Assembly (NCBI RefSeq): GCF_000165425.1
Contig: NW_001799222.1
Span: 186,001-250,000, forward strand
Reading direction: 5' to 3'
Length of the DNA stretch: 64,000 nt
DNA from: Paramecium tetraurelia
Lineage: Eukaryota; Ciliophora; Oligohymenophorea; Peniculida; Parameciidae
Below, in pieces: positions 20,174 to 42,759 of this stretch; within the stretch, counting starts at the first letter, position 1; each line of letters starts with the position of its first letter. The translations under genes and the position numbers were made by a program. Under the pieces are notes generated by a model, which was given only the letters and a program-made list of their open reading frames with translations, had not been told where the DNA came from and ran no database searches.

Positions 20174-21643
20174 ATGGATTATGAAACTCTCTTTGCCGTT
20201 CTGCCCAAAGAACCAAAAAAATGGTCAAGGGAAGATGTATCGTAATGGCTCAACTTTGTTGGTTTACAGTCACTGTAAAGCACTTTCAGTATGTATTTAT
20301 TTATAAGAGTAGTAAATAATTCAATTGATGGATCATGTTTAGAATTAATAGAAGAAAATGACTTAATTGATGATCTCGGAATCAATAGTAAGATAGTTAG
20401 AAAAAAGTTAATGCATTGTAAATGTAATTTTAAAGAAAGGGTTGAAAAATGGATTAAAGGAGTACACTTAACATATTAAATCAGTAATGGTTGACGATAA
20501 GCGATGCGATAAGATGGAATAAGAAAACACTTCTCTTGAAAATACAGAATCAGCACAAGCATAATATGGATAAATTAATATATCACATGACATGATGACT
20601 AATTACATTAAGAATAATGAAATGTTATCTCAATAGTTCTAACAGCCATTATGCGAAATGTAATCGCTATACACTATAATCTAGTGAAAACAGGCCCTAG
20701 TTTTTAAAGAAATAATAAACCGGCATTTAATTAGAATAGGAAGTTGAAAACTTTGCACCTAAAATATCAAATGAACTCATTATTCAACCAACTGAAGGAC
20801 CTCAGACTAATTTTTATTGTATAAAGGAATCAGGTGGTAAGATAGGCAGACACTCTAGCAATTAGATATTAATATTGGAAGAAAGCATTAGTAGATTTCA
20901 TGCCGAAATAGTCTTTTAAGATGAAGATGTAATTTGAGTGTTTTATGAAATAGTTTTTCATTAAAGACATTGGATCAACTACTGGCACTTTCATCAAAGT
21001 AGAAAGCAAGTTAGAATTAGAAATTGGAATGGTTATAGAATTGGGCAGCAATTAATTTGAGATTTAGTAGTTGACTTCTAATAATCAAACAGTAGAAGTA
21101 AAGCTATCTTTATCTATTTATAGGTTGTCATGCTTATTATTGAAGGACTTAATTCCTCAGAAAAGCATATCATAGCTTTGAACCCCTAAAAGTGCGTTAC
21201 GACTGTAGGCAGAAAGCAAACTGCAGATCTCACTTTCAGCGAAGATCATCATCTCTCAAATATTCATGCCAAGATCTGCCTTATTGAAGGACGTGTGTAT
21301 CTGGAAGATATGGGATCAACTAACGGGTATACTTATTAAATGTTATGGTAGTTCCTGGTTGAGATTGTCTAAAGAAGGACTGTTCTCATAGTTATATCCA
21401 TTACAAAATCAAACGGCTTTCAAAATTGGAACCACTTCTACATATTTATGTAAAAGAACTACTTAGTTGATTACCGACAAGAATAACGAGAATAGTTGTA
21501 TAATTTGTATAGAAAATGACCGAGATGCTCTATACATGCCCTGCAAACATAATACTGCTTGTCTAAAATGCAGCAAGAATTTAAAAGACTGTCCAATTTG
21601 CAGAACCAAAATCCAAGATGTTATCAGAATCTACAAAAACTGA
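20174..21643 (+). CDS. SAM-FHA-FHA-RING protein, probable E3 ubiquitin ligase
   Basis: Seven exons (introns 20289-20312, 20418-20439, 20660-20684, 20929-20953, 21098-21123, 21327-21351) give 440 residues. Residues 12-85 form a SAM domain (WSREDVSQWLNFVGL ... LMHWLKNGLKEY). Two FHA domains follow: GGKIGRHSS with IKDIGSTTGTF near 197-225, and TTVGRKQ with DMGSTNGS near 303-335. A C3HC4 RING with C-x2-C-x11-C-x-H-x3-C-x2-C-x6-C-x2-C ends the protein (391-425). FHA domains read phosphothreonine, SAM oligomerises, and RING recruits E2. CHFR and RNF8 pair one FHA with a RING; SAM plus two FHAs is not an arrangement I recognise. All domains become continuous only when every intron is removed. Confidence 0.94.
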
Positions 21644-23050: not shown

Positions 23051-24011
23051 TGAATTAGCAACAGAAATTAAGCATCTATTATTCATTGTAATTTAAGCAT
23101 CAACATTAATCTTCCACACCTAAAAACTCAAAGTATTAGGATATAAAAGATAAGTGATATATCAGTATAATTTTGATCCATCTTTAACAGGTATTTTTTT
23201 AACCAGTATGATAACAGAGCTAACATAATAAATATATTAACCAACATGATATCAATAATTTTATATGGCTATTATGATCATGATGTAAAAGAAACCTTTT
23301 AAACATTTGCTATAGATAATTTAAACTTATTCAAAATCATTTTTTGTATTTCTCATTTATAGAGTTGGATCTGATAGCAATTTAGAATAAGAAAATTTAA
23401 AAACAGTTCTATATATCTTATTGAAATAGTAAATGAAAACTGTATTAGGATAAATTTCAATCAAAATTGAAAGAAGCATCTAAAGAAATTCCAGTGTCAT
23501 CTCAATGTAAGAATAACATGTTAAATGGTTATAATAATTAAAGGAAACATAAAATGAGGTAGCCTAGAAAGAAGGATCATTTAAAATATGGATATTTATC
23601 AGAACAGGGCTTGGAGTTAAATTATTGATTGGATATAATATATTGTAATAGTAATAATCAGCATGAATAAATCAAGAGTAGAATAATATCAAAAATTATT
23701 AAAAATACGTGAATATATCAACTCATAATAATCATTTATACTTAACAATACTTAAATAACAAATCCCTACTCCAGCAGCTGCCAATACTTATGTAGGATA
23801 GCTATATCCCCAATCTTCCATATAGGCGCATGTGATTTAAAATAATGCTAGCATAGGAGGAAAACACAGAGCCTTTGATCCTATGAATTTTGCATAGTCT
23901 AATCTAAGCTAGGATTTTGTCCAAGTTGCGTTTGCAGAGCTGAAGGGATAATCATAGATCCCCAAAAAGATTGAAAATAATAATCCATTACAATAGCCTT
24001 AAATAAGTTGA
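23051..24011 (+). CDS. Glutamine/asparagine-rich protein, exon structure unresolved
   Basis: Coding-like sequence fills this stretch, but I could not find one consistent set of introns. A start MNQQQKLSIYYSLQ is at 23051. A middle exon reads MRQPRKKDHLKYGYLSEQGL in another frame (about 23440-23628). The last exon (about 23760-24011) contains PTPAAANTYVGQLYPQSS and GGKHRAFDPMNFAQSN and ends at TGA 24009-24011. A second start at 23663 raises the possibility of two small genes or a decaying one. No domain is recognised. Confidence 0.4.
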
Positions 24012-24043
24012 CTTTTTTTCTTTTAATCCATTTTATTATATTT

Positions 24044-26889
24044 ATGAATATATTAATATTATTGATTTTATAGCCATGTCTTATGATATAATTGTTGGAT
24101 GGACTAATAGTAGTGGAATATCAATTTGTTGACTACAACAATATTTAATTTGCTTTAACTTGCAAAACTTAATTCTGGTGTTTAATTGGATTTGGTTCCA
24201 CATATTCAAATGCTGACATTATCAGGATGTCTAATGTTAATGGAGTTTTGAAAATTGAAGACACCCTAGAGCAGAACAAGATTTCGTTTACATCTCCTAC
24301 TGTCGATGCTTAGCAAGATATATATGTTTTGGATGCTTTGATAAATGATACATATATATTTTCTTCGTTTTTAAAATCGACGAACTCAGATGATCCCACA
24401 GATGAATTAATAGACTCTTATAATAATGTTGAAATGTTTTATGCCATCAATGAGAAGAGTATAGATTTTGATACTTACACCTAATTTGGTAGGTTTTAAC
24501 TTCAAACTTATTAATGTCATTATACTTGTGCCACATGTTATGGACCATTTGCATATTAATGCACAATGTGTAATGATAATAGCATCCAAGTTCTGAATGG
24601 CTAATGCAATTCTAATTACTATAATAATGTAACTGAATTGCTAAACAAGCAAATCTTAATAAAGGATGAGTTTATTCTTTAGTGGGAATATGATAAAAAT
24701 GATAATATTATCTTATAGATAGAAATATTCTCATGTGATTGGTTTGGCTTGGGATTTAACAACGATAAGTAAGAATTGCAATTTAATATAGAATGGAAAA
24801 TACTGATATGTTACTCATTACTATAGAAACAATAACCATCAACAATGACAAAGGGTATTATGTCTAGATTGATGACATGTTTGGAACTCAGAATACTGCT
24901 CCATTATCAGACACTCAGTTATTTGGAACCTAAGATTGGATTTTGGATGGCTTTACATACAATAATGTTACAGATTTATTAGTTATAAGAGTTCATCGTA
25001 AATTGGTCACTTCTGATAAATACGACTTTGACTTTTCGTAAAAGAAGGACACCTTGAGTATTTATGCATTTGGTCTAAATGGTCAATAATACCATAGTGC
25101 CAATAGAGGGGCATTTCAATTTGAATTGTCTAAGAATAATTAATCCTATTAAGAAGATTATTGGGACAAATTAGTTCATAATGGTCACGTCATACTCATG
25201 TTATTATTTTGGTCATTTATTTCAGATGTCGGCATATTTTACGGAAGACAATTGAAGAGTTATCCAAAGTATGTTCGAGTCCATGGCATGATATTTCTAT
25301 TCTTATCAATAGTCACCTACTTTTTTGTATTTGGGATGATATCGTAATAATAAAAAAGAATATAACAATTAGGATATTAAGAAACCAAAATAATTCTTCA
25401 CTTTATTCTTGGAGTTGTCATATTATTAATAATGACAACACAAATATTTTTAGGTTTACTAGCGAGAAATAATTTAGAATCCAATAATGGCACATATTTG
25501 ATTTACAAAGTGAAATACATTCATAAATATCTTGGTTACTTATTGTACATAATTACAAAGATACAAGTAATTATTGGAATTACCATATATGATTCCTCAT
25601 ATATTGGACTGTTCATTATCTATTACGTCTTATTGTTTTTAATTAAATTTACCATCGAAATGCTCTATTATTATTAAGTGTCTGCAATGTCTCGAAAGAG
25701 AATTAAATACAGTTAAATTGAATAGGACCAACAAACTCTCTATGAGAGCATTATTGAAAAACTGAACACTGGCACTCCATACTAAGAGATGATAGAAGAC
25801 TATCCTAAAATTACATACATTATTCTAAGAGAAGCAGTCTATGATGTGAGTGATTTCAACCATCCAGGAGGATAATACATCTTCAGAAAAATCAAAGGTA
25901 GAGAAGTTGGACGTTATTTCTATGGATCCTACCCAATTAAAGACACTAAATTACATAAACACTCTTAGTTTGCAATCAATTATATCGAAACTCGTTATTT
26001 AGGAGATTTCAAAAATGAATCATGTCCCATGCTTTACACTGTCTCAGATTTTAAGAAACCATCTCATGTTTGGACATTACAAGAAATTAAATCCATGGGT
26101 ACCAATGTCTCTCTGTTTAAGTTCATTAACTAAGATTTTAAAGTGAATTAAACTATCTAAGGAGTCTAGTGGTTTGGTAGATACTTCTATATCAAACCAT
26201 ATGGCATTGGAATAGATTTCTAAGAGAGACCTTACACAGCTGTTTCATGCTTAAGTGAAATGAATATCAAATATAGGTATGAATTGATTGAGTATCTCAA
26301 ATCAAAAGATTGGACTAAACCTTTGCCATAACTGCCACAATTATCAAACATTTTATAGTTTGTTATCAAAAAGTATAATGGCCAAAAAAACTTAAGCAAG
26401 TTCATTCACACTGCATCTCATAAGAGATTTGAAATCACAGGACCTTATGGCTTTGGATTGGAATTAGATGATCACAGTTCTGGAGTGCATTATGTATTTT
26501 GTTAGGGTACTGGTGTTCTGCCATTTCTGGATCTATGTGATTATCTTCTAAGAAAGGCTATATTTTCCATTATGTACCAGGATGGGTTGCCAATTCAATA
26601 GCAGTATAATTCATTGGACAAATTTAAATTGATCCTCTGTGTGTCATCCAAGACTTAAATTTTGGGATATCCTATTTTATAAGACTTAGAATATTTGAGT
26701 GGCTAATATAATCTAAATTTATTTGAGTTCCACATAACAAAGTTGCATTACACTAAAAGAGACATACAAGATAAATTGAAATATTAGGCTGCAAAGGTTT
26801 ATGTGTGTGGATTCCAATAATTTGAAGATGACTTAATAGAATTGCTCTAACAATGTGGTGTAGACTCCAGATATATAGTATAAATATGA
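24044..26889 (+). CDS. DOMON-cytochrome b561-cytochrome b5-flavin reductase fusion
   Basis: One intron (24769-24791, 23 nt); 940 residues. Order: signal peptide MNILILLILQP; lumenal region with a Cys-rich block near 157-187 (CHYTCATCYGPFAYQC); DOMON-like fold to about 355; cytochrome b561 core with membrane helices at about 373-395, 403-425, 443-470, 485-505 and 515-537, with heme-type histidines near 375, 407, 446 and 485; cytochrome b5 near 578-640 with HPGG at 597; then ferredoxin-reductase-type FAD and NAD domains with RPYTAVS near 720, GPYGFG near 791, QGTGVLPF near 814 and VYVCG near 911. Electrons could pass from NAD(P)H through FAD, b5 and b561 hemes to an extracytoplasmic DOMON heme. 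Substrate (ferric iron, copper, ascorbyl radical) is unknown. Confidence 0.93.
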
Positions 26890-40542: not shown

Positions 40543-40833
40543 TTTCAAAAATTTTATTTGAAAAATAATAAGTTAAAAAAAATTAGCGCAATCAATCTAT
40601 ATAAATCAAGGACATATTATCATAGTTTGAGAAGAACTTGGATTCTTAGTAAGAATTAGTTTCAAATTTTGTGATTTTTAAGTGTAATTTTATAATTAGA
40701 ACCATTATTCCATGTGATCTTGTCGGAATTAGTCATTTTATATTTATATTTTTGATAAAATATAATGGAATCTAGGATAATTAAATTTTAAATAGTATTT
40801 ATTAGTAATTATTTTAAATAATTTAAATATATT

Positions 40834-42759
40834 ATGTTTGGAGGTGGCATTTTTGGGAATTAAAACCCAGCCTAAACAACTGGAGGAATAGGATAATTAT
40901 TAGGTAATGTAATTTAAGACAATTAAGGTCAATAATAACAATCTACATTTGGAGCACCTTAAGGAGGAGCTATATTTGCAAATCCAGCACAATAATAAGG
41001 TTTATTTGGATCTGCTCCAGGAGCACAAGGACAAACTGGATTTGGTGGCTTAATGGGAGGACAAATGCAATAAGGAGGCCTCGGTGGAGGATTAGGACTT
41101 TAATAACAACCTTAAGGCACATTTGGTTTAACAGGTGGTTTAGGCCAACCTCAAGGATTAGGATAATAAGCTCCTACATTTGGTGGTTTAGGAGGAGGAT
41201 TAGGAACAGGATTAGGAGGAAACCCTGGAAGTGGATTTGGATAATAAACTGGAATGGTAGGTTAAGCTCCATAAACAGGAGGTTTATTTGGTTAATAACC
41301 TTAAAATGGAGGAGGATTGTTTGGTTAATAATAATAACCAACTTTATTTGGCTAATAGTAGCCATAACAACAACAAGCAACAGGATTATTTAGTGTTTAA
41401 CCCCCTGTTAATTAACCTTATGGATAATAATAATAATAATAAGGAGGTTTATTTGGGTAGACACCTTAACAACCCTAACAAGCAGGATATGGTTATGGAT
41501 AATAATCAACTACTCCTTCATTTGGTGGGAATTCACTTTTTGGCTAATAGTAACCTCAATAATAGGGTGGTGTTCTTGGTATGGGAGTAGGATTAGGACA
41601 ACAAGCATAACCAGGTAATTAAATTGTATTGCCTGGAGGTGTGGATGATTCAGTAAATGATGCATCTTTAGAATAAAGAGTTAGATTGGAGGATACAGTA
41701 TCAGCTATTAGTTGGGGAACAACAATACCAAATTTCTTAGCGATATCCTCTTGGGATGGAAAGGTCAGAATTTTGGAAATCTAATAGAATTCATATAAAA
41801 GAGAATTATTTGAAAGAAGATCATTTTAAGTTGATGGGTAAGTTGGATAAGTGAAAAATCCTATAATTTGCATGGATGCTAAGGGAGATTTGTCTCAAAT
41901 TTTTGTAGGATGTGGATTTGATCATACAGTAAAAGTTATAGATACCAACTCAGGTTAAATTGCATCAATAGGATAACATTAAGCTCTAATAATATCAGTT
42001 TATTGGATAGAATCTGCCTAAATGATACTATCTATTTCAACAGATTAATCATTAAAAATGTGGGATGTCAGAGCCCCAGGATAACCAAGATTTTAATGTC
42101 AATTCTAATACAAACCACTTGTGTCTGATTGCAATTTCCCATTATTGGTTATTGGATTTGCATCTGAAAAATTATCCATAATCAATTTGAATGAATTATA
42201 ATAGTTACCAGGAAGATTTTAATACATCGATTCACCATTGGGAACCTATTCACAGTTAACTGCTTTAGCAATATTTCCCTCAAGAGATGGATTCACTTTA
42301 GGTTCTATTGATGGAAGAGGACATTAAACCAATATCACAACCAAATAAACATAAGGTATGCCTACTGAATTTTAATTAAAATCAATCATGACTTTTAAGG
42401 CTCATAAAGTAAATATTTAAATGTTATTTTAGGTTGAAGACAACTAAAAAGGAAAAGTCTAAAACTATTTCTTCCCCGTTAATTGTATCTAAATGAATAT
42501 CAAAAATAACTACTTTCTAATGACTGCAGGAGGAGAAGGTTAAATGATATTTTGGGATATCAATGTAAGAAATAAAATTAGAACATTTTAATTCAATTGT
42601 AATCCTATCGTTTGTGCTAAAATGAGTCCTGATGGTTCCATGCTGGCATATGCTTTAGGAAATGATTTTTCAAAAGGGCCTGAATTCTTTAATGAATTCT
42701 AACCTAAAATATAAGTTCATTTTATTCCAGAAAATGAATTAAGATACCCTAAAAATTGA
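40834..42759 (+). CDS. RAE1/Gle2 nucleoporin with N-terminal GLFG repeats
   Basis: A 641-codon frame. Residues 1-265 are Gly/Gln-rich with many FG, GLFG and related motifs (GGLFGQQPQ, GGGLFGQQQQ, SLFGQQQ). From about 275 a WD40 propeller follows, matching RAE1/Gle2: VSAISWGTTIPNFLAISSWD, IFVGCGFDHTVKVID, QSLKMWDVRAPGQ, then FFPVNC and FWDINVRNK. RAE1 acts in mRNA export at the pore and normally binds NUP98, which supplies the GLFG repeats. Here the repeats are on RAE1 itself. Two 24-nt GT...AG stretches without TGA (40904-40927 and 42409-42432) are likely introns; the second interrupts AHK|VEDNQKG in the propeller. Confidence 0.92.

Follow-up and report, generated by a model that had tools for sequence, protein, structure and literature searches.

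The plant CYBDOMs (DOMON plus cytochrome b561 proteins) HYP1 (PMC10784544) and CRR draw on cytosolic ascorbate. A gene at positions 24044–26889 (+) of the 64,000-nucleotide stretch of Paramecium tetraurelia DNA analysed here (the window) raises the question of whether a protein of this kind can carry an electron donor of its own. The encoded protein comprises, in order, a hydrophobic N-terminus, a DOMON domain (DOMON1), a spacer with six cysteines, a second DOMON domain (DOMON2), five predicted transmembrane (TM) helices, a cytochrome b5 domain and an FNR-type reductase. We consider that it is probably a CYBDOM-like protein that moves electrons across the membrane and is supplied by a b5-flavoprotein donor in the same chain. 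The sequence shows how the modules follow one another in a single open frame, and it offers candidate ligands; from these we infer topology, heme content, direction of transfer and acceptor.

Gene structure and reading frame

The gene was translated with genetic code 6, as TAA and TAG must both stand for Gln for it to be read; the GC content of the window is 21–31%. The start was placed at the ATG at 24044, upstream of which lies an in-frame TGA (23972) with no in-frame ATG in between, and the stop is the TGA at 26887–26889. A 23-nt intron (24769–24791, +, GTAAG...ATAG) lies inside DOMON2, and the frame requires its removal: if it is left unspliced, translation stops after 337 aa, and with this one splice a protein of 940 aa is obtained. 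The Pfam DOMON score rose from 80.6 bits for exon 1 alone to 108.4 bits for the spliced protein. Paramecium introns most often measure 25 bp, according to the available part of PMC5014332. The initial annotation had described a single gene for a multi-part protein at 24044–26889, and this was borne out, with one spliced frame of 940 aa whose DOMON and b5 domains score above the Pfam cut-offs.

Of five other candidate introns, the four other than that at 26878 were examined for their effect on the 940-aa product and rejected. Three of these shorten the protein, to 172, 498 and 845 aa, and a 19-nt candidate at 26860 would alter the C-terminus, lengthening the product to 1049 aa. The candidate leading to 498 aa is a 29-nt intron-like stretch (GTA...TAG; 25344–25372, +) in the TM2–TM3 interval, and is possibly a regulated or cryptic splice site.

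DOMON domains and the cysteine spacer

Residues 1–26 (24044–24121, +) are hydrophobic, with a Kyte-Doolittle peak of 2.14 over residues 5–23. A signal peptide had been proposed here; the hydrophobic stretch is present, and on this hydropathy basis it may be a signal peptide.

The Pfam family PF03351 (DOMON) matched two stretches at E 1e-4 or better within residues 19–372, ahead of the TM region, with 108 bits in total. DOMON1 (residues 19–135; 24098–24448, +) scored 78.5 bits by itself. There is no His in residues 19–157, hence no Met/His pair, and DOMON1 should therefore not hold a heme of the Met/His type. At the position of the Met it has a Tyr, as read by eye from a short BLAST alignment with DOMON2. 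Lacking heme ligands, DOMON1 may have a structural or ligand-binding role. It is followed by the spacer containing C158, C162, C165, C173, C176 and C188 (24515–24607, +).

DOMON2 (residues ~189–360; 24608–25146, +) is the second of the two PF03351 stretches and is split by the intron. When DOMON2 was scanned without DOMON1, either alone or with the cysteine spacer, no Pfam match was found, which we interpret as an effect of the HMMER prefilter. Its candidate heme ligands are Met243 (24793) and His343 (25093), assigned by eye and from one short BLAST alignment. The Cys-rich and DOMON-like regions noted earlier were thus confirmed, and it could be added that the DOMON domains are two in number and that the candidate heme Met and His occur in the second only.

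The membrane region

Hydropathy placed five TM helices at residues 375–393, 407–425, 447–465, 489–507 and 512–530, within a region (residues 374–530; 25186–25656, +) that we read as b561-like. His374, His406, His445 and His486 stand at the starts of TM1 to TM4, one at each. Random placement of five His residues put one at all four core-helix starts in 33 of 200,000 trials, and in 24 of 200,000 when placement was confined to hydrophilic positions; this test was devised post hoc, after a preset test of His spacing had failed. The preset test failed because the H2–H3 interval is 39 residues, 31–36 being allowed; the observed spacings are 32/39/41, and 54 of 20,000 shuffles passed. Spacings calculated from the residue numbers in the available parts of PMC10784544 and PMC10691727 are 34/33/36 for HYP1 and 36/34/39 for Dcytb, so that the H2–H3 and H3–H4 intervals of the ciliate protein are longer than in either.

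The b561 family PF03188 scored 14.1, 14.8 and 18.2 bits in the three forms of the sequence scanned, all under the cut-off of 23 bits. The score of 18.2 bits was obtained for residues 366–530 and covered profile positions 2–131 of 137, and none of 20 segment-preserving shuffles matched this family. Such shuffles do match other families (lowest E 0.0007), and DUF2231, Pox_A14 and Cation_ATPase_C scored similarly to PF03188 on the real TM stretch. The region was not recognized by a profile made from two sequences, human Dcytb and AtCytb561-B: 3365 of 5000 shuffles scored equally or better, and in a second build 4131 of the 4829 reported shuffles did so. When PF03188 was searched for in proteobacteria, matches appeared in 2 of 150 genomes, both under the cut-off.

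In a single-sequence AlphaFold model, the b561 region by itself was predicted as five helices, with a pLDDT of 65 (low confidence). Foldseek of this model against the PDB returned 51 matches, none at E ≤ 0.001, and among the 50 of 51 listed none was named b561. A single-sequence model of exon 2 (698 aa) had a pLDDT of 39.8 and was set aside. The initial annotation had seen a b561 helix bundle with four spaced histidines. The four His at the TM starts and the absence of PF03188 matches in the 20 shuffles speak for it; the family score lies under the cut-off, and structure prediction did not confirm the fold. The adjoining DOMON domains and the arrangement of the His residues make b561 the best reading of the membrane part from its sequence; it is also the weakest part of the case, and is not proven.

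Topology and the ascorbate site

In CYBDOMs, the b561 core consists of TM1–TM4, with H1 and H3 holding the outer heme and H2 and H4 the inner one, according to the available part of PMC10691727. That text gives CYBDOMs an even number of TM helices and an outside C-terminus, whereas for plant CRR the consulted part of PMC10784552 reports five TM helices and, by split-GFP, a cytosolic C-terminus. With five helices, as predicted here, the b5 and reductase domains would be cytosolic and the DOMON domains outside or lumenal. Loop charges (Lys+Arg/Asp+Glu) were 4/0 for L1, 3/1 for L2, 3/1 for L3, 0/1 for L4 and 4/3 after TM5. These back the topology weakly: L1 and L4 agree with it, and the outer L2 and inner L3, both +3/−1, do not discriminate.

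Cytosolic ascorbate is bound in Dcytb and AtCytb561-B by three basic residues, located seven and three residues before H2 (H2−7, H2−3) and seven before H4 (H4−7), as set out in the accessible part of PMC10691727. In the insect CYBDOM CG8399, as far as the same text goes, only the Arg at H4−7 is fully conserved among the three contacts, and the positions H1+23 and H3+21 are basic as well; H2−3 is non-basic in insect CYBDOMs too. In HYP1, H4−7 is R307 (PMC10784544). The ciliate protein has Tyr399 at H2−7, Val403 at H2−3 and Ile479 at H4−7, so that the basic ascorbate contacts are replaced. These contacts are where the studied CYBDOMs accept their donor; belonging to the family does not formally depend on them. 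Its H3+21 residue is Ala466, and H1+23 is Lys397, which is basic. Since Lys397, Arg467 and Lys483 remain on the predicted cytosolic side, though the key Arg is gone, ascorbate might be bound through another arrangement.

The cytochrome b5 domain

The b5 domain (residues 575–650; 25789–26016, +) starts about 45 residues after TM5. PF00173 scored 25.7 bits in the whole protein (residues 583–632) and 27.4 bits in the fragment, against a cut-off of 23.7. The first candidate heme ligand is His599 of the HPGG motif, and the second is His630 or His632, 31 or 33 residues further on; in classical b5 the second His comes about 24 residues after the first. The HPGG module claimed for the sequence is therefore present, with the motif at 599 and a family score above the cut-off. 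It may be noted that the fused b5 domain is non-acidic, with 12 Lys/Arg versus 9 Asp/Glu; free b5 proteins are usually acidic.

The FNR-type reductase domain

The C-terminal domain (residues 690–940; 26134–26886, +) contains RPYTAVS (721), KKYNG, GPYGFG (792), QGTGVLP (813) and VYVCG (911), in this order. The rules for FNR motifs are RxY(S/T) for the flavin, GxGxxP for the nucleotide and a C-terminal CG, and the corresponding RPYT (721), GTGVLP (814) and CG (914) occur in sequence. FAD_binding_6 and NAD_binding_1 were not listed by Pfam at E up to 10. Of 103 bacterial reductase sequences, 29 went into a profile, whose score on residues 651–940 was 23.6 bits, compared with 4.6 for the best of 2000 shuffles. 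Its alignment starts after RPYT and ends beyond the CG motif, and across 314 open reading frames of the window the sole other comparable match was to the same frame. As 11 of the 29 sequences descend from loci found by the query itself, the test was repeated with the other 18. This profile scored 12.2 bits, above all 2000 shuffles (best 9.5); the margin is small, and the full-length frame (8.1–8.9 bits) scores under one shuffle.

Weak NCBIfam matches covered overlapping stretches (BoxA 0.007, PyrK 0.021, PetH 0.051), and we take all three models to be of the FNR type. In a tblastn search of plasmids, seven of nine records (E 0.02–1) were annotated as FAD, FAD/NAD(P) or 2Fe-2S oxidoreductase-type; these seven are near-copies of three proteins, and the remaining two are nucleotidyltransferases. 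A Pfam match to DmmA-like_N (0.029) was left out of the evidence. The two profile tests and the ordered motifs make the FNR domain well supported at the sequence level, and the FAD/NAD reductase first recognized by its motifs now also stands above all 2000 shuffles in two profile tests.

Proposed electron path

In the path that we propose, NAD(P)H would reduce the FAD of the FNR-type domain, and electrons would leave the FAD one at a time for the b5 heme, the ligands of which would be His599 and either His630 or His632. From there they would pass to the inner b561 heme (His406/His486), then to the outer one (His374/His445), and on to the DOMON2 heme (Met243/His343), which would deliver them to an outside acceptor. 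By analogy with HYP1, CRR and SDR2, this acceptor would probably be a complex of ferric or cupric ions; oxygen is possible. Yeast without FRE1 and FRE2 that expressed CRR reduced ferricyanide, and Fe-malate to a lesser extent, only once an ascorbate precursor had been supplied, as described in the available part of PMC10784552.

That NAD(P)H could drive reduction outside the cytosol through the attached b5-flavoprotein had been suggested at the outset. The four-part architecture, the replaced basic contacts for ascorbate and the five-TM topology are consistent with the suggestion; that the attached donor has replaced ascorbate is a step that we infer. With somewhat less than even confidence, we tentatively see the protein as a CYBDOM that gave up ascorbate and gained a b5-FNR donor. 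It would then be a one-flavin, four-heme wire for NAD(P)H-driven outside or lumenal reduction, following a b561-based route independent of NOX/FRE and possibly confined to ciliates.

Alternative explanations

Other explanations touch on the unity of the gene, on the nature of its membrane part and on the partner of its reductase. Two neighbouring genes could have been taken for one, the first coding for the DOMON-b561 part and the second, with a separate start, for the b5-reductase part; in-frame ATGs do occur around the junction, at 25660, 25687 and 25789. The first of the two supposed genes would be without a stop, because the exon 2 frame has no TGA in 698 codons; the chance of this is about 1.2e-6 from base composition, and the five remaining frames of exon 2 have 12–23 TGA each. 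GC3 across three segments is also even (0.29, 0.29 and 0.32), and we regard two genes as very improbable. A single chain could still be a NOX-like or FRE-like enzyme whose membrane part is a ferric-reductase domain, the product being superoxide or ferrous iron. Such domains have six helices, and their His are paired 13–14 residues apart. Five TM helices are predicted here, and none of the His of the region (371, 374, 406, 445, 486) form a pair at that distance; PF01794 is absent from the matches listed at E ≤ 10, whether the whole protein, the fragment or the TM region was scanned. The ferric-reductase domain was rejected for the TM part on the absence of PF01794 and of the His pair. The same logic of DOMON outside and reductase inside is found in eFRE proteins, by the available part of PMC3591440, and still we hold this assignment to be quite unlikely.

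The b5-reductase might instead mainly serve another partner, such as a desaturase or hydroxylase, with the DOMON-b561 part as a separate ascorbate-driven module and the fusion merely co-localizing the two. Pairs of b5 and reductase commonly supply lipid enzymes, and K397 (at H1+23, basic in insect CYBDOMs too), R467 and K483 would still be available on the cytosolic side. Against this, the Arg at H4−7, which is fully conserved in the CG8399 sequences and corresponds to R307 of HYP1, is an Ile in the ciliate protein, and the contacts before H2 are Tyr and Val; the b5 domain, moreover, lies about 45 residues past TM5. This arrangement appears unlikely to us, and we keep to a CYBDOM-like protein with an attached donor.

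Comparison with known proteins

Like the CYBDOMs (plant HYP1 and CRR, animal SDR2, insect CG8399), the ciliate protein has a DOMON domain, predicted to lie outside, with a candidate Met/His pair, followed by a putative b561 core of TM1–TM4 with four His, and it resembles CRR in its five predicted TM helices and predicted cytosolic C-terminus. It differs from CYBDOMs by adding its own b5 domain and FAD/NAD(P) reductase, by its replaced ascorbate contacts, by an extra DOMON domain without heme ligands and by the cysteine spacer.

In eukaryotic nitrate reductase and Ncb5or, an FNR-type reductase comes after cytochrome b5, with a CS domain in between in Ncb5or; to our knowledge, neither has a DOMON domain or a b561 membrane part. 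We also know of no FRE protein with a b5 domain. The eFRE proteins of Naegleria gruberi, Albugo laibachii and Phytophthora infestans carry extracellular DOMON domains together with a heme-bearing membrane domain and with domains for FAD and NADPH, and b5 is not mentioned in the available part of their description (PMC3591440). According to the same text, their membrane part is of the ferric-reductase (FRD/NOX) type, whereas that of the ciliate protein is b561-like and is joined to b5. The initial annotation had not recognized the architecture and had thought it possibly specific to ciliates; that the scheme resembles nothing known, and that ciliates alone have it, are the less supported points. 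Since Naegleria and oomycetes already have DOMON fused to a ferric reductase with FAD/NADPH domains, the principle exists, and what is new is the build with b561 and b5.

Among the papers listed from an open-licence library, no description of a ciliate DOMON-b561-b5-reductase appeared, and among papers on DOMON with Tetrahymena or Paramecium none appears, by title and start of abstract, to concern a ciliate DOMON protein. Such a fusion may already be present in protein databases, unremarked. Four pattern scans of viral contigs gave 13, 7, 10 and 21 matches, with no relative among them. Against PDB sequences, exon 1, exon 2, the FNR domain and the b561 region brought up nothing beyond a rhodopsin and a further match, both by chance, and weak matches to b5 with E values of 0.21 or more. 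If the reading is true, a b561 core can run on a flavoprotein donor, and beside NOX/FRE there would be a second evolutionary solution to NAD(P)H-driven transmembrane reduction. The natural fusion offers a direct test of the electron entry point in a CYBDOM.

Neighbouring frames and other features of the window

When 27 other open reading frames of the window were scanned with Pfam, frames for an ABC1 kinase, an amine-oxidase-like protein and a RabGAP were found close upstream of the DOMON gene, and RING and PP2C frames close downstream. These neighbours say nothing on its function. An open frame at 23732–24031 (−), for which no Pfam match was found, has its first internal ATG about 12 nt from the ATG of the DOMON gene; if real, the two form a very tight divergent pair. 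Pieces of an FHA domain in two overlapping frames at 20621–21516 (+) suggest another gene with an intron. At 40756–42756 (+), a WD40 protein is encoded that has an FG-nucleoporin-like PF13634 match (E 2.5e-5, 25.5 bits, under the cut-off of 32.2); the composition of this stretch is unusual, and several frames are open on both strands.
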